A stretch of 22,603 nt of DNA from Gemmatimonadota bacterium (GTDB lineage: Bacteria > GCA-2686955): positions 1-22,603 of the forward strand of contig NYZA01000237.1 of the NCBI GenBank assembly GCA_002686955.1, in the 5' to 3' direction. The translations under genes and the position numbers were made by a program. Positions 1 to 22,603 of the stretch are shown in pieces. The notes under the pieces were generated by a model. The model made no database searches, was not told the DNA's origin, and saw only the letters and a program-made list of their open reading frames with translations. Every line of letters starts with the position of its first letter. Position 1 is the first letter of the stretch.

Positions 1-1680
1 CCAGGCCGGCGCCAGTCGCAGATCACCCGCCAGTAGATCGAGGGTGCCGCCGATACCGATGCAGACACTGGCGCCGCTGGCGGCCAGGTGACGGGCGCCC
101 CAGACATCCTGTTTCGGCATGCCGAAGGCAACGAGGATCACCTGCGCGCCCGAGCGTCGGATCGTCGTTACGATCTCGTCGTCCTCTTCGCTGGGGCGGT
201 CGGGATCGAAGCGGGGCGCGAGAGTTCCGACGATCTCGATTCCTGGGTAGCGCGATCGGGCTTCTTCGGCGGCACGCTCCGCCACGCCGGGACCGGCGCC
301 GAGGAAGAAGATCTTCCATCCTTCGTTCGCGCCCCGCTCCAGGATTCTTTCGGCGAGGATACGGCCCTGCACCTTCTCGCGAAGCGGCTCTCGCAAAAGA
401 CGGGCCGCCCGCACGACCCAAGCACCGTCGGGGATGTTGAGGCGGGTCTGGGAGAGGAGCTTCGAGAAAGAGGGCTCCCGCGCCGCCCGCATCAAGAAGT
501 TGACGTTTGGTGTCGCGATCTGGCTCGGTTTGCCCTCTTCGATGAATCGGGCCACCAGATCGACACACTCGTCCATGGTGACATCGTGAATCGGGACGCC
601 CAAAATCTGTCGCTTGACCGGATCCCCTATCCTCGCCGCGGCCGCTGCCTCGACGGCGGAGATATGGCCCACCGAGCGAGATCGGGTCACGGTATCGAGG
701 AGCTCGGCGAAGCTCTCGGCGGGGCTGCCGGCGAGCTTCCGACCCGCATCGTCGAGGGCCGCTCGGCCGAGCTTTGCGCAGAGCGATGGGTTGCAGGCGA
801 GCCGTACCAATGCAGCCCCCAGCTTCTCCACCTCCCCGACCAAGCCGGTGACTTCGTGCTCGATCAGCTCGCTCCCGGCGATTCCGCGCACAGCGAGCAC
901 GACCTGACCGGCGCTCATAGCTTCGATCACCGCGCCGCGGGTCTGTGGCGGTCCGAGGGCCACGGCGATTGTGGGGGCCTGCCCCTCGTGGAGGTGGTCC
1001 AGTGCCTCGCGCGGAGCCAGCCAGGGATCGAGCAGGCGTGTGCGCAGCTCGCCGGCGGTGCGGGCTTCCAGCTCTCGCACGGTCTGCAGGGCGATGCGCA
1101 CGTGGGTCTGCTCCGCCTCCCGCAGGGAGTGCAGGGCGGTGAGGACACGTTCCACGTCGGCCCAGCGACGCAGCGGCACCGGTACCGCCGCCAGGATCGG
1201 AAAACCGGGTCCGGCTCCGCTCGCCCAAGGAGAGCGCTCCACGGTGGGAGCCCCCGGCAGACGAACGCAGCGCGCCGGGGGAAAATTGGCGCGTAACGCG
1301 GCGAAATGGGCCGCCGAGGTGCTCAGGAGCACCGCGTGAGCGTAGAAACGCAAGGGGAAACGCCGCCGCGGCGGGTCGTCGTGCCCGGACCCGGCGGGAT
1401 CGATGACCACACGGCGCGGGATCCGATGGCGCATGCCCAGCGCAAGGGCCTCGCGCGTCGCCTCTGGCCCCACGCCGATGATCCCGCGCAACTTCACCTG
1501 TTCACGCAGCCTGCCGAGCTCCCGCGGCCGCTCGATCACGTGGAAGAGCTGGTCTCCGATCCGCTCCGCTTCGATCGCGCGGCGCAAGGGCGCGGGCGCC
1601 GCGGAGAGCCCCTCGCGCGGGAGAAGCACTGCCCAATGGTGGGGGCGTTTGGTCGACAGGGTGAAGGCGGTTGGAGACAT
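1..1680 (-). CDS. Glycosyltransferase fused to WecG/TagA/CpsF domain (C-terminus cut by window edge)
   Basis: This open frame starts at ATG 1680, one codon after an in-frame stop (1683-1681). It runs without a stop to base 1, giving about 560 visible residues. Residues about 1-340 resemble the C-terminal half of a GT4 glycosyltransferase: near 245-280 a segment contains AVIEAMSAGQ followed by SELIEHEVTGLVG, the usual nucleotide-sugar-binding lobe. Residues about 358-560 are a clear WecG/TagA/CpsF domain: TPNVNF (390-395), the IPDGA motif with its conserved Asp (D418), FGMPKQDVW (518-526) and GIGGTLDLLAG just before the edge. Members of that family transfer an N-acetylmannosamine-type sugar onto a lipid-linked acceptor at the inner membrane. 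A single chain would thus carry two sugar-transfer steps. The N-terminal part is diverged and its donor is unknown. No strong ribosome-binding site precedes the ATG, so the start is less certain than the reading frame. Confidence 0.85.
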   Translation of the reverse strand, partial: MSPTAFTLSTKRPHHWAVLLPREGLSAAPAPLRRAIEAERIGDQLFHVIERPRELGRLREQVKLRGIIGVGPEATREALALGMRHRIPRRVVIDPAGSGHDDPPRRRFPLRFYAHAVLLSTSAAHFAALRANFPPARCVRLPGAPTVERSPWASGAGPGFPILAAVPVPLRRWADVERVLTALHSLREAEQTHVRIALQTVRELEARTAGELRTRLLDPWLAPREALDHLHEGQAPTIAVALGPPQTRGAVIEAMSAGQVVLAVRGIAGSELIEHEVTGLVGEVEKLGAALVRLACNPSLCAKLGRAALDDAGRKLAGSPAESFAELLDTVTRSRSVGHISAVEAAAAARIGDPVKRQILGVPIHDVTMDECVDLVARFIEEGKPSQIATPNVNFLMRAAREPSFSKLLSQTRLNIPDGAWVVRAARLLREPLREKVQGRILAERILERGANEGWKIFFLGAGPGVAERAAEEARSRYPGIEIVGTLAPRFDPDRPSEEDDEIVTTIRRSGAQVILVAFGMPKQDVWGARHLAASGASVCIGIGGTLDLLAGDLRLAPAW

Positions 1681-2382: not shown

Positions 2383-3558
2383 ATGGCCAGAATCGATCGT
2401 TGGGGTGAGCCGGATCCGCACCGGATCACAGTGCTCTTCTTCAGCTGCAACTATGTGATCGGCGGCATGCAGAGGCAGCTCACCGATCTCGTGACCCATA
2501 TCGACCGCGACCGCTACCGCCCCCTCGTCGCCTGCTTCGGTCCATCCGGACCCTTCGCCGACGAGCTGAAAGCGGCGGGCATCCCCTTCGAATGCTGGAA
2601 CGTGGAGCCCTCGTACGATCTCAGCGCACCCCGGATGATCGCGCGCATGGTCCGCCTTTTGCGCCGCGAGCGGGTTCAGATCTTCCAGACCTACGAGTTT
2701 CCGACGAAAGTGCTGGGATGGACGGCGGGACGGATCGCGCGGGTTCCGGTGATCACCTGCGCCGAGCACGGCACCGGCGAGCCGAAAGACACTCCGCGGA
2801 AGACCTGGCTCCTGCGCAGACTCAGTCACCTCTGCGATCGTTTCATCTATGTCGCCGACGCTCAGCGGCGCTTCTATCGCGACGAGCGCGGCTTTCGGCT
2901 CGATGGCCGCACTGAAGTCATCTACAACGGAATCAACCATCGCCGATTCGACCCCGGCACCGTCGTCCCCGTCCCGCGCGCCGAGTTTGGGGTCGATGAC
3001 GACGCCCCGATCGTCGGAATCACGGCCGTCTTGCGTGAGGAGAAGGCGCACGAGGTGTTGCTGCGCGCGATGCCGGGGATCGAGCGGCACGCGCCGGGAG
3101 CTCGCGCGCTGATCGTCGGGGACGGACCGGAGCGAGCGAAGATCGAGTCGCTCGCCCGCGAGCTCGGCGTCGAAGATCGAATGGTCATCACCGGATTTCG
3201 CAACGATGTGGAGCGCATCCTGCCCCTCTTCGACGTGATGACCCTCTGTTCCGATCCGGTAGCCGAAACCTGCCCCCTCTCCGTGCTCGAAGCGATGTGC
3301 ATGGGGAAGCCGATCGTCGCCACGAGCGTCAGTGGTTTGCCGGAGCTGGTCGTCGAAGGGAAGACCGGCTACCTCGTCGGTATCCGTGACAACGAAGCTC
3401 TCGGTGAGCGCATCGGCGGTTTACTGGCGAATCGTGTCCGTGCCCGCACCATGGGTGAAGCAGGCCGGGCACGTGCCCTCGCCGGCTTCACCATCCCCCA
3501 TATGGTGGCGCACCACGAGCGCTACTACGAACAGATCTGGTCGGAGACCCAGCGCTGA
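2383..3558 (+). CDS. GT4-family glycosyltransferase
   Basis: A 391-residue cytosolic or membrane-associated GT-B enzyme, predicted to move a sugar from a nucleotide donor to a lipid-linked or glycan acceptor. The N-terminal lobe opens with ITVLFFSCNYVIGGMQRQL (15-33), the acceptor-side beta strand and Gly-Gly loop of GT4 enzymes. The hinge is at YNGINHRRFDP (181-191). The C-terminal lobe has VGITAVLREEKAHEVLL, LIVGDGPER (243-251) and the diagnostic E-x7-E pair, E295 and E303, in AETCPLSVLEAMCMGKP. Length is normal for the family and the frame is intact. It is isolated on the plus strand between the deiminase relic and the convergent korAB operon, whose last stop lies only 10 bases away. It presumably belongs functionally with the polysaccharide genes of this window. 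The exact sugar cannot be read from sequence. Confidence 0.93.
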   Translation: MARIDRWGEPDPHRITVLFFSCNYVIGGMQRQLTDLVTHIDRDRYRPLVACFGPSGPFADELKAAGIPFECWNVEPSYDLSAPRMIARMVRLLRRERVQIFQTYEFPTKVLGWTAGRIARVPVITCAEHGTGEPKDTPRKTWLLRRLSHLCDRFIYVADAQRRFYRDERGFRLDGRTEVIYNGINHRRFDPGTVVPVPRAEFGVDDDAPIVGITAVLREEKAHEVLLRAMPGIERHAPGARALIVGDGPERAKIESLARELGVEDRMVITGFRNDVERILPLFDVMTLCSDPVAETCPLSVLEAMCMGKPIVATSVSGLPELVVEGKTGYLVGIRDNEALGERIGGLLANRVRARTMGEAGRARALAGFTIPHMVAHHERYYEQIWSETQR

Positions 3559-6544: not shown

Positions 6545-7004
6545 ACTCCTTGGGAGACTGCGCACTGGCGGGCGGGTTGCCGTGAATCACCGCCAGGCAT
6601 GCCCCGCGGCTCCGCGCCGCGCCGAACCTGCCGTACCGGGCGCGGCAACGCTCTGGAGCCGATCCCGTGGTCCCGGCCCGCATCCCGAAGCCGAAAACGC
6701 CGATTCGCCCTGAGGATCCTTCCCATTGCGCCCGATCTCAGGTTATCCTCACCCCAACAATACGCTCGAATCGCCCGCGCGCACCGGAAAGCGCCGCCCG
6801 GAGACCGATTCGAGCCCCCATCGCGGCGGCACCGTCCGCGGTGGCAGATCTGAAGCGCTCGGTTCCGGGGGGGACGAGCGCTGGAGTGGGGGTCTCAACG
6901 GGCCCCCGCTCCTCTTCTGTACGAAACCGCCCAAGAGCAGAATCCGCCGTTCCGCATCCCATTTTCGGGCCGTCTCCGGGCGCGCCTTCCGCGTCGCCCC
7001 CGAA
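6545..7004. other. Non-coding stretch between korA leader and methyltransferase gene
   Basis: About 460 bases with no convincing coding frame on either strand; open frames here are arginine/proline-rich artefacts of high GC. It contains 7-bp arms CTGGCGG (6565-6571) and CCGCCAG (6590-6596), and a longer hairpin at 6883-6912 listed separately. Nothing else is recognised. Confidence 0.5.
6883..6912. repeat. Inverted repeat, possible terminator of the aldehyde dehydrogenase operon
   Basis: GGAGTGGGGG (6883-6892) pairs with CCCCCGCTCC (6903-6912) through a 10-base loop. There is one T-G mismatch (a wobble in one RNA orientation). It lies about 92 bases past the methyltransferase stop at 7005 on the minus strand. 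No T-run follows on that strand, so a classical intrinsic terminator is not shown. Confidence 0.35.
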
Positions 7005-7814
7005 CTACCCCCGCCGGCAGCAAAAGAGCGCCGTCGACTCCACCCAAGCCGGATAGTGCGGATCGAGCACCGGAGCTCCGTCCATTCCCCCCTTCTCGTA
7101 GCTGCCCCAGGCCTCTTCCACCTCGAAGCCCGCCGTCTCGAGCATCGGCCGCAGCTCCTCCGGCTCGACATAGTGCTTTCGCAGATCGAGCGAGCGCACC
7201 CGCTCCGCGCCGTCGGCGCCCACGATCACCCATCTGTGGCGGCTCTCGATGCCGCGCCGCGCCGCGTCGTGTACCACCCGCTGGCTCCGGATCACCCGCT
7301 CCCCGGTCCCCGGCCGCACCCGCTCGTACCGCTCGATCCACCGCCCATCGAAAAGCGCGAACACCGCCTCGTGTGGACGAAATGCGTCGAGCAGAAAGAG
7401 CCCACCCGGCTCCAGATGCGCGTGCACCCGCTCGAACGTGCACGCGTACTCCTCATCGCTCCCCAGCAGCAGGCAGGTCTTCCGCGGCAGCAGCACCACA
7501 TCGAAGCGCCGCCCCAGATCGAAATCGCGCATATCGCCGACCCGCAGGTCGATCCTCGACCGTACTTCCGGACCCTCCGTCGCGATCTTCGCCCGGCTCA
7601 CCTGCAACATCCCCGACACCAGCTCGAGACCGGTCACTCGATGACCATCCCGCGCCAGAGGGATCAGAATCCGCCCCGTCCCGCACGCCAGCTCGAGCAC
7701 CGCCCGCGCCCGACCCCGCAGCAACCCCCGATAGAGCAGCACGTCCGCCTCGAACCCCTCGTAGTCGAGGTCGTACAGCTCCCAGGGGTAGTCCTGGTAG
7801 GTCGTCTCTTTCAT
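7005..7814 (-). CDS. Class I SAM-dependent methyltransferase
   Basis: A 269-residue soluble protein with a Rossmann-type SAM fold. Motif I is VLELACGTGRIL (39-50), the acidic residue closing strand 2 is in VTGLELVSGML (E64), and motif II/III surroundings are VGDMRDFDLG (92-101) and FDVVLLPR. The second half (about 150-269) adds beta strands typical of small-molecule methyltransferases and ends FCCRRG. The start is ATG 7814, 12 bases after the stop of the upstream semialdehyde dehydrogenase gene, so the two are probably co-transcribed. The ribosome-binding site is weak (GAG at about -9). The substrate is not identifiable. Linkage to an ALDH7 enzyme hints at an amino-acid-derived or amine compound, but that is inference from position only. 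Confidence 0.88.
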   Translation of the reverse strand: MKETTYQDYPWELYDLDYEGFEADVLLYRGLLRGRARAVLELACGTGRILIPLARDGHRVTGLELVSGMLQVSRAKIATEGPEVRSRIDLRVGDMRDFDLGRRFDVVLLPRKTCLLLGSDEEYACTFERVHAHLEPGGLFLLDAFRPHEAVFALFDGRWIERYERVRPGTGERVIRSQRVVHDAARRGIESRHRWVIVGADGAERVRSLDLRKHYVEPEELRPMLETAGFEVEEAWGSYEKGGMDGAPVLDPHYPAWVESTALFCCRRG

Positions 7815-7826
7815 CTTTGCTCGGAA

Positions 7827-9338
<1,512 letters not shown>

Positions 9339-9418
9339 GGTTCGTTCCTCTCAGGACCGGAAGTCTGTTTCGATTGCGCGAAGTGTAGCTGCAACGCAAC
9401 TCCCGACTCCAGCGGCCG

Positions 9419-9450
9419 CCTCCCCTCATCCGGGAATAGGAGGGGGGAGG
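9419..9450. repeat. Imperfect inverted repeat downstream of the polysaccharide operon
   Basis: CCTCCCCTC (9419-9427) faces GAGGGGGGAGG (9440-9450) across 12 bases; pairing needs a two-base bulge. It sits about 125 bases past the last stop of the polysaccharide operon and before the dehydrogenase gene. It could end transcription, but no T-run is seen. It overlaps the dispersed repeat at 9445-9467. Confidence 0.3.
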
Positions 9451-9467
9451 ACCGAGCACTGATCGGC
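9445..9467 (-). repeat. Dispersed 23-bp repeat, copy 1
   Basis: On the minus strand this reads GCCGATCAGTGC, one variable base (T), then CGGTCCTCCC. It matches 20080-20102 on the plus strand at 22 of 23 bases. Both copies are intergenic and near GC-rich hairpins, as expected of a small extragenic repeat family. Confidence 0.55.
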
Positions 9468-9575
9468 TGGTCGTCCGCACACGAAACCAGGCCCGCCCCC
9501 CGGCTCCGCGTGTCCGATCCGGATGTACCGGTTGCCCGCGGCTGCCCTCACACGCGCTCCCTGAGCGGATCCTGG

Positions 9576-9863
9576 TTAGAGCAACCGCATCACGATGATC
9601 GGCCCACGCCACATCGCCAGCGCGAAGATCAGCCCGAGAAGGATCGCGAACACCAAGACGTCGAAAAAGGTGCGCTCCGAATCGCGCGCCAACATGTAGT
9701 GGATCCGGGTCGCCTCGTTCTGGGGCATCCAGCGACCCCGATAGAAAACCATGCCCTGGTTGCGCTGCTGATAGGTGTCGGCATCCAGGCGTGGCAGCAG
9801 CAGGCGACGGAAGGCGGTCTTCACCGCCTCGATTCGGGATTGTTCATCGAAGCTGGAGAGCAT
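9576..9863 (-). CDS. Small single-pass membrane protein, last gene of polysaccharide operon
   Basis: Ninety-five residues, not a family I recognise. Residues 1-65 are hydrophilic, with a mixed-charge helical start and a short central motif GMVFYRGRWMPQNEA (37-51). Residues about 67-92 (FFDVLVFAILLGLIFALAMW onward) form one transmembrane helix, so most of the protein should lie on one side of the membrane. The ATG at 9863 follows GAGGG by about nine bases and is 12 bases after the stop of the preceding 83-residue gene, which also ends in a membrane helix. Such a pair at the end of a Wzz/Wzy operon suggests accessory components of the polymerisation or export machinery. No catalytic motif is visible. 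Confidence 0.75.
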   Translation of the reverse strand: MLSSFDEQSRIEAVKTAFRRLLLPRLDADTYQQRNQGMVFYRGRWMPQNEATRIHYMLARDSERTFFDVLVFAILLGLIFALAMWRGPIIVMRLL

Positions 9864-9875
9864 CTCGGCAATCCC

Positions 9876-10127
9876 TCAGGCAAGGAAACGGCTGCTGAAA
9901 TAGGCCCAGAAGAAGAGACCGGCGACCGCGCAGATCAATCCGAGGGCCGCTTCGTTGAGCAAGCGAACCGCCGACCGGCGCCGCATCATCGCGAACTCGT
10001 CTTCACTCTGAACCCGCGATTCGGAAACCTCCTCCTCGGCGACCACGGAGTAGTACGCCGCGATCTCCTGCTCGAGCGTGCGCCGCTCCAGCGGGGTCAA
10101 TAGATCGAGCAGGCTCTGGCGGCTCAC
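9876..10127 (-). CDS. Small single-pass membrane protein following the Wzz-type gene
   Basis: Eighty-three residues, unrecognised. The N-terminal 50 residues are helical and acidic (LTPLERRTLEQEIAAYY, then a Glu-rich stretch). Residues about 59-79 (AALGLICAVAGLFFWAYF) form a single transmembrane segment close to the C-terminus. The start is GTG 10127, overlapping the Wzz-type stop by 4 bases (GTGA), with GGAGAG about eight bases upstream. This indicates coupling to the chain-length protein. The helical cytosolic head plus membrane anchor could pair with Wzz or with the following 95-residue protein. This is inference from position and topology only. Confidence 0.75.
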   Translation of the reverse strand: MSRQSLLDLLTPLERRTLEQEIAAYYSVVAEEEVSESRVQSEDEFAMMRRRSAVRLLNEAALGLICAVAGLFFWAYFSSRFLA

Positions 10128-11515
10128 GTTTCGGTCTCTCCAGCGCCGCCCATCGCCTCGATCATCTCGCGATCGACGAACACGACGCCCCGAATCGAGC
10201 GTTCTCGCTCCAGGTCGTTTCGCTCCACGATCACGCAGTAGACCAAAGAGACCATCAGGGCAAGCGCCACACTCACCAGCATATTGGCGAAAGTGTTCGG
10301 GTATCGAGGCTGAGTAGGAGCGGTCGGTCCGTCGAGAATCTCGAACGAGACCATCTCTTTCACACCCTGGATCTTCACCTCTTCAAGCTGGGTTTCGAGC
10401 GACTCTTCGATCTTGCGGTCTCGGGTTACATCGTCTTGCAGGCGGCTCATCGACGTGCGGATCTCCGGGGCCGCCATCGCATGGTCGTTGAGAGTCATGT
10501 AGACCTCTTGCAGCGCGTCGCGCTCGGCCTTTAGCGCCTCGTTGCCGATCCGCTCCTTGATGTAGTCCGACTGGATGCTGCGCTGAATCGGATTGAGTCC
10601 TTCAGTTTCGACCCTCAGGTTCCGTTCGATCTCCTTCCGCAGGAGTTGGCGCAGCTCGACCAGAGCCGCCTTGGTGCCCGAGACCGTTGGGTGGGAAGTG
10701 GTCAGCTCCTGCGAAGCGCTGGCGAGTTGGACCTCCTTCTCCGCGATCTGGCTGCGTAGCTGGGTGATCACCGGGCTCTCCGCGAGCTGTTCGTTGCTCA
10801 CCTCGATCTCGGCTCGCCTGAGCTCGGCTCTGAGCGTGGTCAGTCGTCCGTTCGACTCTCTGAGGGTGACGACCGTCCGGTCGATCCGGTCGGCGAAGGC
10901 GCTTCGCTTGCTGACCAAGAGCGAGAGCTCCTGGTCGAGATTGACGATCTCTTGCTGCCGGTGGTACTGGAGAAGCTCGCCCTCGGAAGTGTCGCGTCGA
11001 GACCGGACCGCCTCCAGCTCTCCTTCGATGAATTCGCGGACGCGCCGGTTGTTCTCCAGAGAGACCTTCCGGAAGATGCCGTTCATTGCGTCGTAGACCC
11101 GCAGAGCGGTCCGCTGGCCGTCCTCCACATTGCGGGTGTAGTTCGTGATTCGGATCAGCCCCGAGTCTTCGACGTCGATGTCGGTCGTCGAGGTATTGAT
11201 CCGCTCACCCGCGATCTGCTCGGCCATATCGTCGATCGCACCCAGGGCGAGAATATCGGTGAGCGCATCGATCTCCTTGTCCCCACCGGTGGGCAGCATC
11301 GGGCGCAAGATCTCGGCCGAAGGAGGGGTCGTGAGCCCCACCATCGGCGCGTTGCGCGGCATGATGCAGTCGATGGTGACCCGGTAGACCGGCGGAAACA
11401 CCGACGACAGCCCAACGCTGGCCAACACCGAGACCAGAACGATCACGAGAATGGAGCGCCGTCTCGCGGCGATCACATGCATCAAATCTAGGAAACTAAG
11501 TTCTCTCATGCCCAT
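10124..11515 (-). CDS. Wzz/GumC-type polysaccharide co-polymerase (chain-length determinant)
   Basis: A 463-residue inner-membrane protein with the co-polymerase layout: cytosolic N-tail, TM1 at about 20-40, a long periplasmic coiled-coil domain (about 45-400, rich in heptad-like Leu/Glu/Arg) and TM2 at about 408-430. The Pro-rich motif just before TM2, ILDGPTAPTQPRYPN, is the family signature. A short cytosolic tail follows, with no Walker motifs or Tyr cluster, so there is no fused BY-kinase. The protein is longer than enterobacterial Wzz (~330) and closer to exopolysaccharide-type co-polymerases. It overlaps the upstream polymerase gene. ATG 11515 is given, but ATG 11509 makes a 4-nt ATGA overlap and is equally likely. 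It should set chain length of the polymer built by the adjacent Wzy-like protein. Confidence 0.9.
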   Translation of the reverse strand: MGMRELSFLDLMHVIAARRRSILVIVLVSVLASVGLSSVFPPVYRVTIDCIMPRNAPMVGLTTPPSAEILRPMLPTGGDKEIDALTDILALGAIDDMAEQIAGERINTSTTDIDVEDSGLIRITNYTRNVEDGQRTALRVYDAMNGIFRKVSLENNRRVREFIEGELEAVRSRRDTSEGELLQYHRQQEIVNLDQELSLLVSKRSAFADRIDRTVVTLRESNGRLTTLRAELRRAEIEVSNEQLAESPVITQLRSQIAEKEVQLASASQELTTSHPTVSGTKAALVELRQLLRKEIERNLRVETEGLNPIQRSIQSDYIKERIGNEALKAERDALQEVYMTLNDHAMAAPEIRTSMSRLQDDVTRDRKIEESLETQLEEVKIQGVKEMVSFEILDGPTAPTQPRYPNTFANMLVSVALALMVSLVYCVIVERNDLERERSIRGVVFVDREMIEAMGGAGETET

Positions 11516-13026
11516 CTCGTGTGCGGCAAACCACGGATCAGCTCGTCTCGTCGCAGCTTGGCCGTGATGTTCTCGCCTTGTTTCTGGCGAAGATAGATCG
11601 TCATCGCCTCGATCGACCCAAGAAGGAAATAGTTGATGTGGAAGTTCAGTGCCTGCTCAAACTGCTGCATTATCAGGCTGAGGATCAGCGCTACGAAAAG
11701 AACCACGGCCAGGTTGCGATCGAAAGGATCGAGCGCCATGAAAAGGTTGCGAATCGCCCGGTTCATGCCATGGACGTAGAGCAGTATGATCAGTGTGCCG
11801 CCGACCAATCCCAACTCCGTGAACGCCATCATAAACGTGTTGTGGACGTGCATCGACTGAATGTTTCCGGGGTAGTACCGGAACGACTGAAGTCCGGTCC
11901 CGAACCACGGACTTCGGGCGAAGGCATCGAAGCCCAACCGCATGATCTCAACGCGGTAGTTCACCGACGACGACTTGGCTTCGATCATGTAGTCGATCCC
12001 CGCGCCGAGCCCACCGGCCAGCACGAAAAGCAGACCCGTGATCGAGATGAACAGGATGTATCTGACTGCCCAGTTCGGTTTGAGGAGGGGTGGCACGATC
12101 AGCGCGGAGACCATGACGGCGAGCCAAGAAGCTCTGCTGAAGGAGCAGAAAAGGCCGATGAGCATCCAGGCCACAACGGCGAGGAGCTTGATCGTCGTTC
12201 GCCGGTCGCGCTGTGGAAGCGCCAGCGCCGCCAAGGGGAAGAGCGCCCCGAACGCGCAGACTTGGCCCAAATAGGCGGGGTGCTTGAACAGGCCGGTCGC
12301 CCGAAGGAAGTGCAGGCCGCCGAGCGAGAAGAAGCGGCGGGCACCCTCTTGGGTGCTCATGAGCGAGGTGACCTTTCCGGTGAAGCTGTACATCGCGACC
12401 TGGTAGATCGCCACCAAGACCGTAATCGCCCCGATCGCGATAAAGGTCTTGGCCGCGAACTCGAAATCGTCTCGGTCACGGAGGAAATTCACGATGAAGA
12501 GCACCGAGAGGAAGCGTGCGAAGGGCTGCAGCAAGACCGTGATCTGGAATGGGGAGCCCCCGCGCGTGAGCACCTGCAAGCTCAAGGCGCAGGCAGCCAG
12601 ATAGGCAAGCATCCACCAGTGGATCGGTGTAAAACGGAGCCGGAAATCGATTCCGGCGAACGATCCGAGAAAGAGCAGAACGTAGTAGAGAACGAGCAGA
12701 ATGCCCACATATGGGCCGGGCAGAATCGAGAAGTAGAACCCGGATACGAGCAGAACGAAGAAGATCTTCTTCGGTGCGGGTACCCGCAAATGGTGCACTC
12801 GCCGTCTCGCGAGTGCAGCCACGCTCGCGATCCCCACGAGAAGGAACGCCATCGAATAGGAGTGATCCAGCAGCCCGAAAGGGAGCGGAGAGACGTCGGT
12901 CGAGGCGATCCGCACATAGGCGGCTGGAGAGAGCGCGACGAGCAGCGGTACGCATAGCCCCGCCAGCAAGAGCATGGCGTAGAAGGGCCTGCGATCGGCC
13001 GGTCGGTCGGGAGCTTCGTTGGTCAT
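11506..13026 (-). CDS. O-antigen ligase/polymerase-type membrane protein (Wzy/WaaL superfamily)
   Basis: A 506-residue polytopic inner-membrane protein with about 10-12 hydrophobic segments. The family's large periplasmic loop is present: FSRASWLA in the middle, then MRLGFDAFARSPWFGTG (about 345-361), a gap, and MHVHNTFMMAFTELGLVGG (about 374-392), carrying the Arg, Gly and His-Asn residues typical of Wzy_C proteins. Ligases and polymerases cannot be separated by sequence. Immediate linkage to a co-polymerase favours polymerase (repeat-unit polymerisation in the periplasm). The gene starts 69 bases after the stop of the upstream glycosyltransferase. That spacer is unusually AT-rich and may hold an internal promoter. 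No clear ribosome-binding site precedes the ATG. Confidence 0.88.
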   Translation of the reverse strand: MTNEAPDRPADRRPFYAMLLLAGLCVPLLVALSPAAYVRIASTDVSPLPFGLLDHSYSMAFLLVGIASVAALARRRVHHLRVPAPKKIFFVLLVSGFYFSILPGPYVGILLVLYYVLLFLGSFAGIDFRLRFTPIHWWMLAYLAACALSLQVLTRGGSPFQITVLLQPFARFLSVLFIVNFLRDRDDFEFAAKTFIAIGAITVLVAIYQVAMYSFTGKVTSLMSTQEGARRFFSLGGLHFLRATGLFKHPAYLGQVCAFGALFPLAALALPQRDRRTTIKLLAVVAWMLIGLFCSFSRASWLAVMVSALIVPPLLKPNWAVRYILFISITGLLFVLAGGLGAGIDYMIEAKSSSVNYRVEIMRLGFDAFARSPWFGTGLQSFRYYPGNIQSMHVHNTFMMAFTELGLVGGTLIILLYVHGMNRAIRNLFMALDPFDRNLAVVLFVALILSLIMQQFEQALNFHINYFLLGSIEAMTIYLRQKQGENITAKLRRDELIRGLPHTRWA

Positions 13027-13044
13027 CGGTGGGGGGCAAGAGCA

Positions 13045-13086
13045 AGGATCAACAAACCTCTATAAATATCCTCGTTTCGACCGGAT
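13045..13086 (-). promoter_or_regulatory. Possible internal promoter before the Wzy-like gene
   Basis: In the 69-base spacer the minus strand shows TTGCAA, 18 bases, then TATTTA, followed by TAGAGG. The AT-rich island (around 13055-13078) stands out from its GC-rich surroundings. This is suggestive only. Confidence 0.3.
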
Positions 13087-13095
13087 TTGCAACCA

Positions 13096-15606
13096 TCAGA
13101 CCGCCGCTTCCAGCGTTTCGAACCAGGCGGGAGGGGAAGATCCCCAGCGCTCACGGGCTTTTTCCAAGAGCTGCAGGGCTTCGGCGGCGCAGTCGAGCTC
13201 GACCGCGCATGTCGCGAGATTCTCGATCACGACTGCGTCGTCGCACCCCGCTTCCACCGCGCCGCGTAGAGTTCGAAACGCCTCTTCTCTCTCGCCGGTG
13301 CTCCAAAGCGCCGCTCCCAGGTTGCCCGAAAACCGCGGGTTGGCTCCCGGCAGCGCCGCCGCCTGGCGAAACGCCTCGATCGCCTCTCGTTCTCGTCCGG
13401 CCACCACCAGAACGCGGCCCAAACCGTCGTGCAGATCGGGTTGATCGGGTGCGGCCTCCAGCGCGGCCAGGAAGACCCGCTCGGCGCCGCCTGCGTCGCC
13501 GAGGCGCAGGCGAGTGTCGCCCGCCCAGGCCAGGATCAAGGCCCTCTCCGATGGGGCGAGGGGATGTTCCAACACGGTCCGTTCGAGCTGTTCGACCGCT
13601 TCGGCCTCGCGACCCGCCCGCGCCCAGGCGATCCCCAGGCGCATCGCGGCCTCCGCCGACGCCGGAGCGACCTCGAGTAGTTTCTCGTAGACCTTGGCGG
13701 CCTCCGCTGGTGCCCCGTTCCCCAGCAAGAGCTCGCCCAGGCGCTCGAGGGGCGCCGGATCTTCCGGCAGGAGCGCCGCCGCCGCCAAGTACAGCTGGCC
13801 CGCCTCCTCGATCTTCCCCTGTTCCCGAAGCTTCTCCGCTCGAATGAAGGCAGCATGCCCCTTCTGAATCCGTTGCTCCCGCAGTGTGGCGTCGGGTCGC
13901 TCCGAATCGGTCGCTTCAGTGGCTTCGTGTGTCTCGTCCCTTCCCACCGCTTCCATCGGTCGCGAGGTCTCGGCCTTCTCCTCGCGAGCCGAAGCCTTGG
14001 CCCATTTCTCGCGGAAGATCTTCTGGTTCTTCTCGAGCAGCGCCGCATAGTCCTGGCCCGTCGCGCGGAAGGTCACGGATCCAAAGTGATGGATGAAGAC
14101 ATCATGACAAATACCTATTTGAAAGTCAGATAGCTTGGCACGAACGCAGTAGTCGTCGTCCTCGAAATTGCCGATGCCGAAACGCGTGTCGAGCAGACCG
14201 ATCCGATCGATGGTGTTCCGCGAGATCATCATGCAGAAGCCGGTGATGCGGCTGACCCGCTCTACCTCTCCCTTGTGCTCCAGGCTCCGCAGACGAGCGA
14301 ACTTCTGCAAATCGTTCTCGTCGGAGTATCGCGCGTCCTTCACGAGCTGGGGACCGGAGATGCAATTCGAGGTCGGACCGGCCACGCCGAGCTTCGGATT
14401 CGCCTCGAAGGCGTCGAGCATCGTCTCCAGCCATCCCTCGGTGAGCAGTGTGTCGTTGTTCAGCAGCACCACGAAATCGCCACTCGCCGCCTCGATCCCG
14501 CGGTTGAAGCCGCCCGCGAATCCCAGGTTCTCCCCATTCTCGATCACCTTCGCGCCCGGCACCGACCGGAAGTACTCGAGCGTACCGTCGGTCGAACCGT
14601 TGTCGATCAGTATCAGCTCGTAGGGCGCCCGGGTGTACCTCCGAATCGACTCCACGCACATTCGGTTGTACTTCTCCTCGTTGAAGGCCAACACCAGCAC
14701 CGAGGTCAGTGGGCGGCTCTCGCGGCGCGGAGCGAAGGTCTGCCCTTCTCCCGCGCCCGCCTCGCCGATCGCTCGAAGAAGCCGGCCCATCCGTTCTGCG
14801 TAGCTGTGGTTTCGCCGGACCTCCTCCGCCCCCGCGGCCGCGATCGCTTCGCGCTCGGCATCGTTCGCGAGGTAATGGCGCATCTTCTCGATCGCTTCGT
14901 CGACCGAGCCGTAGGTCACCAGATGCTCGCCGTCGCGCAGCAGCTCCTCCTGCCCATTCTTCGACAGATCGTTGGTCACCAGCAGCCGTCCCGAGGCGGT
15001 CGCCTCGAAGACTCGCATGTTCACGTCATCGCGAATCGATCGATTGACAAGGATCTTTCCCGACGAGAAGCGGTCCGCCATCTCGTCGAAGAACGCCTGA
15101 CCGATGAAGTGCTTGGGGAACTCCCGCGCCACCCGTTCGAGCAAGTCTTTGCGTGGGCCGGGGAAGATGTTGCCGACGAAGACCACATCGTTTTCCGCCT
15201 CGATTTCGGGATTGAGGCGGTGGATTCCGGGGTCGCAGGCGAGCGGTAGCCAATGGGCCGATTCGATGCCGTCGGCACGAAGTTTGTCGGCGCCGTTCTT
15301 TTGGGCGGCGAAGACCCAGTCGAAGGCGCATGCCTTGTGCCGGTCCCAGGCGTACTGCAGATGGGTATCGATCACCCAGAACGCCGATGGACGAAGTCGG
15401 TCCGGCAGCAGATAGCGGAAGCTGTCGTCGACATTCAGATAGAGGTCATAGCCAGATTCGAGCTCGTGAAGATCCCGCGGATGCACGTGCGTCGGCTCGC
15501 AGATCTGCTCGAGCGCCCGCAGGCAGTACCCCCCCGTAGTATCGGGACGTACCTCGTTGTCGAAGATCACCGCGACCCTTGTCGTGGCGAAGCTGCCTTT
15601 GCTCAT
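13096..15606 (-). CDS. Three-part glycosyltransferase: GT4-like domain, GT2 domain, TPR tail
   Basis: An 836-residue protein with three modules. Residues about 10-285 resemble CgeB/GT1-type glycosyltransferases (DTTGGYCLRALEQ near 22-34; NMRVFEATASGRLLVTN 196-212, the C-lobe donor-binding helix). Residues about 300-545 are a GT2 (GT-A) enzyme: SVLVLAFNEE (302-311), LILIDNGSTDGT (331-342), the NND metal-binding motif (383-385) and NFEDDDYCVRA (480-490). After a charged linker (540-580), residues about 585-836 form TPR helices (repeated Ala/Leu/Gly pattern, e.g. YEKLLEVAPASAEAAMRLGI). The start ATG overlaps the upstream stop by 4 bases. One chain may add two sugars in sequence, with the TPR part docking partners. 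Acceptor and donors are unknown. Confidence 0.92.
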   Translation of the reverse strand: MSKGSFATTRVAVIFDNEVRPDTTGGYCLRALEQICEPTHVHPRDLHELESGYDLYLNVDDSFRYLLPDRLRPSAFWVIDTHLQYAWDRHKACAFDWVFAAQKNGADKLRADGIESAHWLPLACDPGIHRLNPEIEAENDVVFVGNIFPGPRKDLLERVAREFPKHFIGQAFFDEMADRFSSGKILVNRSIRDDVNMRVFEATASGRLLVTNDLSKNGQEELLRDGEHLVTYGSVDEAIEKMRHYLANDAEREAIAAAGAEEVRRNHSYAERMGRLLRAIGEAGAGEGQTFAPRRESRPLTSVLVLAFNEEKYNRMCVESIRRYTRAPYELILIDNGSTDGTLEYFRSVPGAKVIENGENLGFAGGFNRGIEAASGDFVVLLNNDTLLTEGWLETMLDAFEANPKLGVAGPTSNCISGPQLVKDARYSDENDLQKFARLRSLEHKGEVERVSRITGFCMMISRNTIDRIGLLDTRFGIGNFEDDDYCVRAKLSDFQIGICHDVFIHHFGSVTFRATGQDYAALLEKNQKIFREKWAKASAREEKAETSRPMEAVGRDETHEATEATDSERPDATLREQRIQKGHAAFIRAEKLREQGKIEEAGQLYLAAAALLPEDPAPLERLGELLLGNGAPAEAAKVYEKLLEVAPASAEAAMRLGIAWARAGREAEAVEQLERTVLEHPLAPSERALILAWAGDTRLRLGDAGGAERVFLAALEAAPDQPDLHDGLGRVLVVAGREREAIEAFRQAAALPGANPRFSGNLGAALWSTGEREEAFRTLRGAVEAGCDDAVVIENLATCAVELDCAAEALQLLEKARERWGSSPPAWFETLEAAV

Positions 15607-16457
15607 GAGCCGATCTCCAGAGCTTCCGATTCCGATGGGATACTCGATTGCTCGTCCTTCCCGCGGGTGAGCTTCCGCATCTCCTCCAAGGCGCCGGGAT
15701 GATCGGGAGCGGCCCGCAGAGTGGCGTCCAACCCCTCCCGGTACAGGTCCTCCCGCCCGGCGAGTCGATGGATCGCCGCCCGGTTGAAATGGGCGTCCGC
15801 CAGGTCCGGCTCGAGCTCGATCGCTCGCTCGAAGTGGGTCCAGGCCTGACCCGGTCGGCCCTGCTGGAAGAGCACGACCCCGATGCGATTGTGCTCCGAG
15901 GCCGACGACCGGAGCGCCCGCAGAGCCGATCCGATCCAGGCGATCGGTTTCGATCCCTGCGGCCCCCAGGCGTGGAGCCGATCGATGAGCAGGTCGTGGC
16001 GCGCGAGGAGGCCGGGCAGAGCCGACTCGGCGAGAATCTCGGGGTAGGGGGTCGATGCACCGGGTACGGCCGCCGGGTTCGCGACGGCGATCAAGGCGCG
16101 TCCCCCTTCTCGGAGAACCCGCCGGATCTCGCCGAGGGTGCGGGCAGGTGCATCGTCCTCTTCGATCCGCCCGAGAAGGAGGACGAGATCGATGCTCTCA
16201 TCCTCCAGTGGATAGGGGTATTCGATCGGACAGGTCGTCAGTGCCGGGGAGAGGGGTGTCGTGCCGTCGTGGAGAGCCCAAGCCTCGTGCCGGTCGGAGA
16301 GCAGGGTGGCAACGCCGCCGAGCCGCGGCGCGATCTCGAGAACCCTCATCGGGGGGCCGTCTGCCATCTCAGCGACCAGCTCTCGCTCGACGTCGTCGAG
16401 AAGACGAAACCAGAGATCATCACTCAGCTCGGTCCGCAGTCCGCAATCCAGTTCCAT
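15603..16457 (-). CDS. Methyltransferase-like domain plus TPR protein
   Basis: The start is ATG 16457, giving 284 residues. It has GGAG seven bases upstream and follows the previous stop by 4 bases; an open frame extends back to 16661 but overlaps the upstream gene and reads as low-complexity Arg/Pro. Residues about 36-150 follow a class I SAM-methyltransferase plan: MRVLEIAPRLGGVATLL (motif I position), IDLVLLLGRIEE, and EIRRVLREGGRALIAVANP (the post-II helix and strand). The glycine loop is EIAPRLGG rather than ExGxGxG, so SAM binding is doubtful. Residues about 185-265 are TPR-like (IGVVLFQQGRPGQAWTHFE, then AIELEPDLADAHFNRAAI). It overlaps the next gene by 4 bases (ATGA). It may modify or scaffold the glycan-assembly step, but the role is inferred from the operon. 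Confidence 0.82.
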   Translation of the reverse strand: MELDCGLRTELSDDLWFRLLDDVERELVAEMADGPPMRVLEIAPRLGGVATLLSDRHEAWALHDGTTPLSPALTTCPIEYPYPLEDESIDLVLLLGRIEEDDAPARTLGEIRRVLREGGRALIAVANPAAVPGASTPYPEILAESALPGLLARHDLLIDRLHAWGPQGSKPIAWIGSALRALRSSASEHNRIGVVLFQQGRPGQAWTHFERAIELEPDLADAHFNRAAIHRLAGREDLYREGLDATLRAAPDHPGALEEMRKLTRGKDEQSSIPSESEALEIGS

Positions 16458-16461
16458 CTGG

Positions 16462-17103
16462 TCACTCCAGCCCGCGACCGGCCGCGGAGCCCGCGCCGGT
16501 GCCCGATGTCCAAACGTCAATCTCGTCCTCCGCTCGTGGATGGGCCCAGCGGAAGATCTGGTGCAACAAGCGCCCTTCCGGTGCGGGACCGGGAGGAGGA
16601 AGAACCTCGAAATGCCCCAAGAGCGAAGGCTGCAGGTCCACGGGACTTCCCTCGATATCACCGGCGATGATGTCGGGACCGATCGCTACGAATCCGCTCC
16701 TCTGCGGGCTGGTCGAGTGGCCGACAATCAACAGATTCACACCCTCGAGGGCCGCGGTGAGCCTCGTCCATCGGTCACAAACCCCGGCCCTTACGATCAC
16801 GAGATCGGTTCCCAGCGCCAGCGCCGAGCGCACGCGCTCGACGGCGGAAAGCTCGTAGCCATCCCCCGATTCCTCCTCGAGATCGAGCTCTTCGGTCGTC
16901 AGGCCGTACGTTGCCAACACCTTGCGAATGTCGGTGCCATTTCCGGATTCTAAGGAGCCGCTTAGCAGCACCTCCTCCGGGTCGAGCTCGAGCGGAAGGG
17001 GCCGCAGCGAGCCCCGGGCGCACTCCGGACGGTCGAATGAGAGGTCCTGCGCCGCCTCCGACGTGAGCCCCGGAACGAGAATCAGCACAATTGGGGACGA
17101 CAT
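16462..17103 (-). CDS. Unrecognised protein with alkaline-phosphatase-superfamily-like segment, first gene of polysaccharide operon
   Basis: A 213-residue protein with no confident family. The N-terminus PIVLILVPGLTSEAAQ resembles the first strand of alkaline-phosphatase/phosphodiesterase folds. Residues about 97-185 follow the second half of that fold in order: DLVIVRAGVCDRWTRL, NLLIVGHSTSP where metal-binding Asp-His usually sits, GFVAIGPDIIAGDIEG, then VDLQPSLLGHFEVLPPPG with a final EGRLL. The metal-ligand DH pair is replaced by GH, and the protein is half normal length, so it may be a degenerate, non-catalytic member. There is no signal peptide. The ATG at 17103 has a strong GGAGGAAA site six bases upstream. 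It leads an operon of glycosyltransferases, so a regulatory or binding role is conceivable. The fold assignment is inference. Confidence 0.7.
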   Translation of the reverse strand: MSSPIVLILVPGLTSEAAQDLSFDRPECARGSLRPLPLELDPEEVLLSGSLESGNGTDIRKVLATYGLTTEELDLEEESGDGYELSAVERVRSALALGTDLVIVRAGVCDRWTRLTAALEGVNLLIVGHSTSPQRSGFVAIGPDIIAGDIEGSPVDLQPSLLGHFEVLPPPGPAPEGRLLHQIFRWAHPRAEDEIDVWTSGTGAGSAAGRGLE

Positions 17104-17420: not shown

Positions 17421-19159
17421 TTACATCGGGCTGACTTGCTCGGCATCCGCTGGCCTGACGCAGCGAATAGGGGAAAGCGGATACCCTTGTACCTCGGTCT
17501 TGGAAGATTCTGAGCCTGGCCCGCCCGTCGCTGCAACGAGATGGCCCCGCCACTCCTCCTCCCACCCCGAGCCAAGCAGAACGCTTACCGTCAGAGTGCC
17601 CTGTCCGAGTTCCGCGGGGACAAGGAATCGAACGATCCCTCTCCATACCTGACCTGGCCCCAATCGCAGCGAGCGCCGAACAGTCCGGATTTGCCGCCCG
17701 TCCTTTTCCAAGCAAATGCGGATCTCCTCGACCACTGATTCCGGGAGAATGTTGTCCACGGTCACCGACCACTCCTCTGTTTCGCCGAGCTCGAGGACGG
17801 AATCGGAACGCGAGATGTACGCGTGAACCGGATATCGTTGATCGATCGCGTGTGCCCCAATGTCGGAGCGAGTGCCGTCGAGATCGACCACATCGGGATG
17901 GCCAACATCCAGGGCCTTCGAGCCGCTGGTAATTCGATAATCCCGTTCTTCAGGGTCTACGAATTCAGGTACACCCATTACATCCACGGGCTGAATGAAT
18001 CCATATCGCGAGTACTCACCGTCAGCGTTACCATGGAATAGCTGGTAGCCCCATCTCACTGTCCGGCTCGCAATTGCCACCGCCGGCCCACCTACGTTTT
18101 CAACAATGCTGTTGTTTCCGCAGAATCCTTCAGCTCCGATCAGAATCGCCGCCCCGTCCCCGGCCCTGGAATCAATGTGGTAATGCGCTAGATTGTCCAC
18201 GAACGTACTGTTCGTTACATTCACATTCCCACTGCTTGATACCCATGAGACGGCGCCGCCCTCGCCAGGAAATATGAGGTGGTATTCGTTAGCCGTACCT
18301 ATTGCTCTATTCTGGGCAAATACTGTTCTGTTAATGCTTCCAGCTGCGCCTGACGCCCAAATAGCGCCGCCGTGTGTAGCAAGACCGTTGACAAAGCGCG
18401 AATCCATGACCTCAAGGTACCCGTCCCACGCGCAAATTCCTCCCCCGAACGAGAAGTACGGTAAATACCAATCGGTTTTCGTTTCGTGGTCAGCGAATAT
18501 GCATCTCTCAATGAACAGATTGGTATCAACAGAGTATATCGCTCCTCCGTCTGCAGTACCATCAAGACCGCCCGGGAAACCGATTCGGTTTCTCACGAAT
18601 GTGCAGTCCTCAATGTGAACGTCGCTCTGCAAGAACTCTCCGGCCCCGCCATCCTCCTTCGCAAAGTTCTCGACAAATGAGCAGTGCTCCAGCATTGCGA
18701 CAGCACCATGCAGAGCGATTGCACCTCCGGCGCTCAGCGGCGGAGTGACATTATTCTGTGTGAAGAGGCAGTTGGAGATCACCAGCTCTCCTCCTTCGAC
18801 ATAGCATCCACCTCCCGCTCTTCGCGAATAGATCCAGTTGTAACCTCCGCCGCCGGTGACAGTGAAGCCGTGAATCCGCGCATTGGCGGCCGGACCCATC
18901 CAGCGGATCACGGAATCGTGACTCTCCCCGTGTATGACCGTGCGTGCGGCGCCACCGTCCGAAAGCAGCCGCGTGCCCCCCCCCTGAGGATGATGTTTTC
19001 TCGGTACGTTCCAGGCGCTACGAGGATGGTGTCCTGCTCACTAGCTTCGTCAATGGCACACTGGATCGACTCGTAGTCGCCAGGCACGTGCAGGACAGCC
19101 CCTGGTGCCAGCGTCGTCGCCATTGCCCAGGCGGCGACAGCTGGTCTGGAGGGGATCAT
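17421..19159 (-). pseudogene. Secreted right-handed beta-helix repeat protein, frame interrupted at a G9 tract
   Basis: Two frames join into one protein of about 579 residues if one G is added at the nine-base run (18984-18976). The N-terminal frame starts at ATG 19159 with a compact signal peptide (MIPSRPAVAAWAMATTLAPGA). It continues with LHVPGDYESIQCAIDEA and TILVAPGTYRENIIL, the standard opening of parallel beta-helix proteins. After the run the correct frame gives GGGTRLLSDGGAARTVIHG, and from 18911 the long frame. It contains Pmp-like FxxN/GGAI repeats (AGGAIALHG, FVENFAKEDGGAG, THGGAIWASG, GEGGAVS), then the ALDVGHP/RSDIGAHA end motif and a C-terminal beta-sandwich-like domain (about 110 residues) ending QVSPM. 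Base composition in 17.9-18.8 kb is AT-richer than its neighbours. The protein is probably cell-surface or exported. It is called broken as written, but it could be phase-variable or a sequencing error. Confidence 0.8.
18976..18984. repeat. Homopolymer tract C9 (G9 in the gene sense)
   Basis: Nine C on the plus strand lie inside the beta-helix coding region, exactly where the frame changes. Ten, or seven, bases would restore one continuous reading frame. Such tracts slip during replication and are also error-prone in sequencing. Confidence 0.85.
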
Positions 19160-19422
19160 GGACATGTCTGCGTGGTCCACGGCGCGCCGAGCAGTGTGCA
19201 TTGGACGATGCGATTGGTCCGCTCGACTTTGTCCGTGAGGGGAGTGTACCAGTCCCAAGAAGCTGTCTGATTTTGGTCGTCGATACCTCTCATCATTCCC
19301 CAGTTTTGTGTGTTCCCGGTGACTTTTGGCTCATCGAGGGCCAGTCCAAACCCATGATCCGCCACCAAATTCAATAGAAAACCTCGTTGGCCCTTGAAGG
19401 ACAAGGAGTTAAGATCGCGCAT
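19156..19422 (-). CDS. Possible 88-residue hypothetical protein before the beta-helix gene
   Basis: From ATG 19422 this frame gives 88 residues with balanced, non-GC-artefact composition (MRDLNSLSFKGQRGF..., then SWDWYTPLTDKVERTNR). Its TGA (19158-19156) overlaps the ATG of the beta-helix gene by 4 bases. I do not recognise a family. There is no clear ribosome-binding site, and the frame continues upstream as Arg-rich noise antisense to the IS1380 transposase. It could therefore be the 3' end of an older gene cut by that element. The AT-richer composition matches the beta-helix gene rather than the flanks. Confidence 0.3.
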   Translation of the reverse strand: MRDLNSLSFKGQRGFLLNLVADHGFGLALDEPKVTGNTQNWGMMRGIDDQNQTASWDWYTPLTDKVERTNRIVQCTLLGAPWTTQTCP

Positions 19423-21702: not shown

Positions 21703-22603
21703 TCAAGGCAATTGCCAAGAGAGCCGGAGCACGCCGTCTAGCAAGATCAGCAGACCGCCCACGAGCATCGCTCCCCAGACGCGCGGGCGCGGAAGGAGCG
21801 CGAGTAGCGCCGCGGGCATCAGGGGGATGGCGATTCTGCCGACTTCGCCGCGCACGACTCCGCTGGCCAGCAGGGCTATTGCGGCGATCGCGAAGGCGCG
21901 CCGGAAACGACCTTCGGCAGCCGTCGGCGGGGGCGTCCCCGCCCGAAAGAGGGCGGCCAGGGCAACCGGGGGTCCAAGGAAGAGCAGGAAATCTACCGGG
22001 TTGAAGAGGAGCCACAGGGCGTAGCCGCGCGGCGCGGTGAAGCCGGCCCGATGGATCGAGAGAGCGGTTCGCGCGGCGCCGATCGGAGAGGTCCCCCAGA
22101 GGGCCGGTAGGAGGAAGAGGAGGGCTGCGACGGCGAGCGCCCCGGCGGCCGCTCTCCGCATGCCGCGGAGCGATTGGCCGGGGTCGGTCCGGTCGAATGC
22201 GGCGGCGAAAGCCGCGAAAGAGGCCACGGCGAGGAAGGCCGCCGCGCCGTAGGAGAGGTGCAGCGCGAACGCAGCCGCCACCCCGGCGGAGATACCGGCG
22301 ATCCAGCCGCCGGCGCGATTCTCGGTTCCGGCCCCCACAATCAGCGCGGCGAGTGCGACGGCGACCGGAAACGCGATCGCCTGATCCAGCTCGGGCAGCA
22401 TGAGCGCCGGCCCGGGCAGGAGCAGCCAGAGCATGCCGGTCCTCGCGGCGGCGGATGGCTCACCGTGCAGGCGCCACGCGGCCAGAGCGATCGGGGCGGC
22501 GGCCGCCGCCGAGAGCAGAGTCAGCAGCAAAGGCACGAGCAGGGCCGCCGCGACCGCGGGGGGCGAGAGCGGAGGATGGAATCCGCGCGGATCGACCCCG
22601 GCG
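21703..22603 (-). CDS. Polytopic membrane protein, N-terminus beyond right edge
   Basis: The frame is open from the right edge to TGA at 21703, giving about 300 visible residues; a GTG at 22536 is internal, since readable sequence (GVDPRGFHPPLSPPAV) continues upstream of it. Roughly eight or nine hydrophobic segments alternate with short loops (e.g. LVPLLLTLLSAAAAAPIALAA, LLFLLPALWG, LVGGLLILLDGVLRL). A loop with LLFNPVDFLLFLGPPVALAALF and short Asp/Glu- and Arg-containing loops are reminiscent of GT-C or ArnT-like integral membrane transferases. The catalytic Asp/Glu of those enzymes lies near the N-terminus, which is missing here. The family is therefore not assigned. The composition is very Ala/Leu-rich, as usual for membrane proteins in GC-rich genomes. 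Confidence 0.8.
   Translation of the reverse strand, partial: AGVDPRGFHPPLSPPAVAAALLVPLLLTLLSAAAAAPIALAAWRLHGEPSAAARTGMLWLLLPGPALMLPELDQAIAFPVAVALAALIVGAGTENRAGGWIAGISAGVAAAFALHLSYGAAAFLAVASFAAFAAAFDRTDPGQSLRGMRRAAAGALAVAALLFLLPALWGTSPIGAARTALSIHRAGFTAPRGYALWLLFNPVDFLLFLGPPVALAALFRAGTPPPTAAEGRFRRAFAIAAIALLASGVVRGEVGRIAIPLMPAALLALLPRPRVWGAMLVGGLLILLDGVLRLSWQLP

Follow-up and report, generated by a model that had tools for sequence, protein, structure and literature searches.

Wzx/Wzy-dependent polysaccharide pathways with co-polymerases (PCPs) of the EpsF/XrtA and Wzc types are the closest described counterparts of the operon analysed here, which shares with them a Wzy_C protein, a Wzz/PCP protein and glycosyltransferases (GTs). 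Unlike these pathways, the operon is devoid of export and initiation genes, and it contains a TPR-fused glycosyltransferase, degenerate AP-like and methyltransferase (MT)-like proteins and two additional small transmembrane (TM) proteins, s1 and s2. In Myxococcus, EpsV, a PCP devoid of a kinase domain, is backed by a pseudokinase acting as its scaffold, EcpK (PMC12004946). Our operon resembles this system in that its PCP has no kinase domain, but it carries no gene for a BY-kinase or pseudokinase, and s1 and s2 are far smaller and membrane-anchored. The joining of a glycosyltransferase to TPR is known from FlmG, the TPR of which binds flagellin, i.e., a protein substrate and not a polymerase (PMC7591256), whereas here TPR is C-terminal to GT4 and GT2 domains, and Wzy and Wzz are encoded in the same operon. 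Finally, the Psl system of Pseudomonas aeruginosa, to whose complex the glycosidase PslG belongs (PMC6813494), is similar with respect to its PCP.

Gene content of the operon

The window, that is, the whole stretch of DNA analysed, is the entire contig C237 (22,603 bp) of a MAG (G000, 84.5% complete). Positions 9576-17103 on the minus strand hold seven genes in the order AP-like, MT/TPR, GT4-GT2-TPR, Wzy, Wzz, s1 and s2. A preliminary description had counted eight same-strand genes mostly coupled by 4-nt overlaps; the common strand is confirmed, the number of genes is seven, and such overlaps are found at 3 of the 6 junctions (MT-GT, Wzy-Wzz and Wzz-s1), the remaining ones being gaps of 4, 69 and 12 nt. 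A plus-strand ORF at 6726-10103 (1125 aa) was discarded as a high-GC artefact antisense to a genuine aldehyde dehydrogenase gene.

The AP-like protein (16462..17103, minus strand, 213 aa) has no Pfam match; it is related to type I phosphodiesterases, but short and degenerate. The AP-like reading of the preliminary description is borne out for the C-terminal ~50 residues only: a four-member AP-like profile aligned with full-length PF01663-type proteins over 49 C-terminal columns (hhalign E 1.7e-6). The D-H-G core, invariant in full-length type I phosphodiesterases, reads V-G-H-S or similar in the AP-like proteins, which do not keep the metal-binding and catalytic residues of the alkaline phosphatase superfamily. 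An AF2 model of the protein alone reached a pLDDT of 34 and was not carried into a fold search. The next gene (15603..16457, minus strand), most likely starting at 16457, encodes a protein of 284 aa with Methyltransf_11 and TPR matches in Pfam. Its SAM motif region is LEIAPRLGG both here and in the orthologue from a second genome (G001); this differs from the usual glycine-rich SAM motif, and we take the methyltransferase to be degenerate. Both proteins, AP-like and MT-like, probably have an accessory role and no catalytic activity.

The glycosyltransferase (13096..15606, minus strand, 836 aa) is a fusion of GT4 (Glyco_trans_1_2), GT2 and TPR domains by Pfam, and is 61% identical over its full length to its G001 orthologue. 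It is followed by a Wzy-type polymerase (11506..13026, minus strand, 506 aa, ~11 predicted TM segments), which matches PF04932 (Wzy_C) at 1.1e-18, above the Pfam cut-off; the sole solved structure found to be related is that of a polymerase/ligase.

The Wzz-type co-polymerase (10124..11509, minus strand) measures 461 aa counted from a conserved start at 11509 and is 67% identical to its G001 orthologue. Pfam Wzz and GNVR matches fall under the gathering cut-off, and matches to the NCBIfam XrtA/EpsF PCP models (1.8e-19 and 3.5e-15) are also under those models' own cut-offs. We read the protein as a PCP because these models match it together with the sequences of solved structures, its profile finding Wzc at 4e-13 and PslE at 5e-8 among PDB sequences. 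Two TM segments flank a large loop and only ~35 residues remain past the second, so that the protein has no kinase domain; Pfam found neither the fused tyrosine-kinase domain of PCP-2a (Wzc-type) proteins in it nor a PCP-2b-style neighbouring BY-kinase or pseudokinase gene in the operon or the 22.6-kb window. For a PCP without a kinase domain, as in EpsV, a separate cytoplasmic partner is therefore expected. An AF2 model of Wzz built from two sequences was, like that of the AP-like protein, poor (pLDDT 50) and was not carried into a fold search.

The last two genes encode s1 (9876..10127, minus strand, 83 aa) and s2 (9576..9863, minus strand, 95 aa, with a Y-x-G-x-W motif), each with a single predicted C-terminal TM helix and neither belonging to a Pfam or NCBIfam family. 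Thus, the MT-like/TPR protein, the GT4-GT2-TPR protein, the Wzy-type polymerase, the kinase-less Wzz-type co-polymerase and the two tiny membrane proteins of the preliminary description were all recovered.

Conservation in a second genus

In the genome collection searched, the phylum of G000 is represented by one further genome only, G001. Its contig C880 (locus L018) carries the end of the MT gene followed by GT, Wzy, Wzz, s1 and s2; the gene order matches that of G000, with identities of 53-67% (55% for Wzy). Codon position 3 was the most divergent in all six aligned gene pairs tested. Contig C792 (locus L033) of the same genome holds the AP-like gene and the adjoining start of the MT gene, and its end overlaps the end of C880 by 157 nt with 5 mismatches, the MT orthologue being spread over both contigs. 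Upstream of the AP-like gene in G001 lies the orthologue (L033:378-1937, 53% identical) of the window gene at 21703..22602 (minus strand), which encodes a multi-TM membrane protein without a Pfam family, possibly a GT-C enzyme, as guessed from its many TM segments. The order is thus multi-TM membrane protein, AP-like, MT/TPR, GT, Wzy, Wzz, s1 and s2, with the region at 17.1-21.7 kb of the window being additional in G000. That region includes a right-handed beta-helix protein (17421-19258, minus strand), apparently broken into two frames (17421-18911 and 18908-19258); both match consecutive parts of a single protein at L020:440-2305, and the gene is thus frameshifted or mis-sequenced.

Synteny of six genes with another genus (53-67% identity) makes the operon more than a chance arrangement and supports its interpretation as a conserved polysaccharide-assembly operon. 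A search of genome contigs with the Wzz alignment returned the G001 record alone (JALXCG010000880.1, labelled Gemmatimonadetes); Wzy as a query against genome contigs gave no match.

Export and initiation genes

Pfam searches detected no OPX, Wzx or initiating transferase gene on the 22.6-kb contig. The left edge of the window, however, offers an explanation. Its two genes, one encoding a GT4-like and WecG/TagA glycosyltransferase (1..1680, minus strand, PF03808) truncated by the contig end and the other a GT4 glycosyltransferase assigned by Pfam (2383..3558, plus strand), are 59% and 78% identical, respectively, to the pair at the right end of G001 contig C178. Before that pair, C178 carries genes for an OPX (PF02563), preceded by a kinase-like fragment, an initiating transferase (PF02397), a Wzz and, beside the WecG/TagA-type gene, a Wzx (PF01943). 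Elsewhere in G000, there are four OPX, five Wzx-type and three Wzz (PF02706) matches, as well as Wzc genes. Orthologues of the C178 OPX, Wzz and Wzx were present in none of the G000 contigs examined, as expected if the corresponding stretch is absent from the MAG. C178-type genes are thus probably located directly beyond the left edge of the window, in sequence missing from the assembly, and the reported lack of export genes is largely an effect of the contig end. A second copy of the left-edge glycosyltransferase pair occurs on another G000 contig (C10), in a frame joining GT4 and WecG domains (L110:11955-15386), one end of which may be over-extended.

Linkage of the C178 set to the operon at its s2 end is an unproven candidate arrangement: the operon and the window edge genes are separated by ~6 kb containing housekeeping genes, and in G001 the operon and the C178 set reside on separate contigs, with no contig continuing C178 having been found. 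The statement that the operon has no flippase, initiating transferase or OPX gene, while literally correct, reflects the contig end, and the novelty argued from the missing export parts is not supported, given the genes beside the edge orthologues in G001, an OPX gene near the homologous module in a distant genome (G103, see below) and the additional OPX and Wzx genes of the G000 genome. The preliminary description itself had proposed that standard Wzx/OPX genes adjacent to the operon in relatives would count against it, and C178 and the G103 OPX provide this in part. A complete, unusual polymer system which needs no Wzx or OPX and is held together by TPR scaffolds would be in line with the gene content of the contig, but is very improbable in the face of the same observations.

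The Wzy-Wzz-s1-s2 module in other phyla

Searching 386 genomes with s2 produced one good match outside G000 and G001, in G103, where the gene order is GH39-Wzy-Wzz-s1-s2-epimerase-OPX and the locus also includes glycosyltransferases. A Wzz profile search led to a second distant locus, in G025, with the order GH39-Wzy-Wzz-methyltransferase-s1-s2-type I phosphodiesterase; the Wzz of G025 was the top-scoring one outside the query set, with 210 bits vs 152 for the next. Both genomes are assigned to small phyla of their own, and their Wzy proteins are 25% (G103) and 23% (G025) identical to that of the window. When profiles built from G000 and G001 only were used to rank all ORFs of each locus, the correct ORF came first for s2 (6.1e-8 in G103 and 4.6e-4 in G025) and also for s1 (0.026 and 0.002, respectively), although the long-range similarity of s1 is weak. 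Homologues of s1 and s2 thus occupy the equivalent place in G001, G103 and G025, so that a search for the gene order in other genomes, as had been suggested, recovers six genes in order in G001 and the Wzy-Wzz-s1-s2 core in the two distant genomes.

A four-member s2 profile stood clear of noise in these 4 of the 386 genomes only. Its many weaker matches, at E 0.002-0.1, were treated as noise, corresponding to frames with stops or to large proteins; an s2 match in G327 was discarded as lying inside a 516-aa reading frame without any operon match. The plasmid collection gave no s2 match. As far as Pfam, NCBIfam and literature searches show, s1 and s2 are an undescribed pair.

It is conceivable, though less likely than not, that s1 and s2 are unrelated small membrane proteins, such as regulators or lipid-carrier recycling factors, staying by chance in the operon of an otherwise similar pathway. 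The methyltransferase gene inserted between Wzz and s1 in G025 could be taken in this sense, but the order is kept 3' of Wzz in three phyla and the pair is missing after other Wzz genes, the next-best Wzz loci (G079, G047 and G350) having no s1 or s2 ORFs after Wzz.

In both distant loci, the GH39 glycosidase gene is located immediately 5' of Wzy (L031:4602-6812 in G103 and L067:11447-13519 in G025), an arrangement reminiscent of PslG, which is a member of family GH39. The best PDB matches of these proteins are GH39 beta-xylosidases, and a direct match to PslG was not obtained. By contrast with Psl, there is no GH39 gene in the G000 window or the G001 operon, and we know of no counterpart of s1 or s2 in Psl. 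A full-length type I phosphodiesterase gene adjoins s2 in two phyla, being convergent in G001 (L018:1117-2964) and on the same strand in G025 (L067:5263-6921).

Discussion

Collectively, these results suggest that the operon is probably the polymerization module of a pathway of the Wzx/Wzy type, for an exopolysaccharide or a capsule, in which s1 and s2 would be partners of a kinase-less Wzz; that the gene set serves to join sugar units into a long polysaccharide of the cell surface is very probable. Sequence analysis identifies the GT4-GT2-TPR protein as a soluble glycosyltransferase, the Wzy_C protein as a membrane protein of the polymerase/ligase family and Wzz as a co-polymerase without kinase. 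The glycosyltransferase would make lipid-linked repeat units on the cytoplasmic side, genes off this contig would supply initiation, flipping and export through the outer membrane, and polymerization by Wzy with Wzz would take place in the periplasm, with export via OPX-type genes encoded elsewhere.

The short N-terminal domains of s1 and s2 are probably cytoplasmic, because arginines precede the TM helix, which would place them in the position where the kinase sits under Wzc. The kinase-less Wzz (or else Wzy) would be bound by the two proteins at its cytoplasmic or TM base, and they would provide the scaffold for which other PCP-2 systems use a tyrosine kinase or a pseudokinase. A PCP that lacks a kinase and has a scaffold partner is known from the EpsV/EcpK pair, and s1 and s2 are proposed as another such partner. 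A stronger version of this proposal, which we advance only tentatively, is that a distinct class of co-polymerases, independent of kinases, has s1 and s2 as obligate, tail-anchored small subunits, which control Wzz oligomerization or link Wzz-Wzy to cytoplasmic TPR-glycosyltransferases and thereby replace tyrosine-kinase control. Against our interpretation, a separate BY-kinase could still serve the operon Wzz, as the kinase-like fragment on C178 illustrates.

The TPR domains had been taken to suggest a physically assembled complex, and a TPR scaffold with Wzz and Wzy is no more than a possibility. TPR-fused GT2 proteins are frequent in G000 and G001, and one of those in G001 is encoded next to flagellin, FliS and FliD, with an AP-like paralogue in the vicinity. 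In the flagellar clusters of both genomes (L034, G001:C553; L035, G000:C209), which contain FliD and FliS and, in G001, flagellin, an AP-like paralogue lies beside a fused sulfotransferase-type I phosphodiesterase, which suggests an unusual flagellin-modification locus. Given these neighborhoods and the flagellin-binding TPR of FlmG (PMC7591256), we considered whether the operon encodes a protein glycosylation system, e.g., for flagellin or pili, in which the TPR-glycosyltransferases would bind protein substrates and the Wzy_C protein would act as an O-oligosaccharyltransferase or ligase, PF04932 including ligases and the only solved relative found being a polymerase/ligase. This appears unlikely: the Wzz-type and Wzy genes are coupled in translation, as suits polymerization, neither flagellin nor pilin nor any other evident acceptor is encoded in the window, and the G103 module is accompanied by glycosyltransferases, an epimerase and OPX.

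The polymerization module of a Wzx/Wzy-type exopolysaccharide pathway is of a known kind, and no new pathway is at hand. The novel element is the Wzy-Wzz-s1-s2 module, the rest of the operon representing a variant, specific to this lineage, of a common pathway for exopolysaccharides. How co-polymerases are controlled without a tyrosine kinase is an open question, to which a pseudokinase scaffold has been the recent answer in Myxococcus (PMC12004946). The small membrane-protein pair kept with a kinase-less Wzz and Wzy in three phyla emerges as a concrete candidate for another solution, and narrows the genes worth testing to a few.
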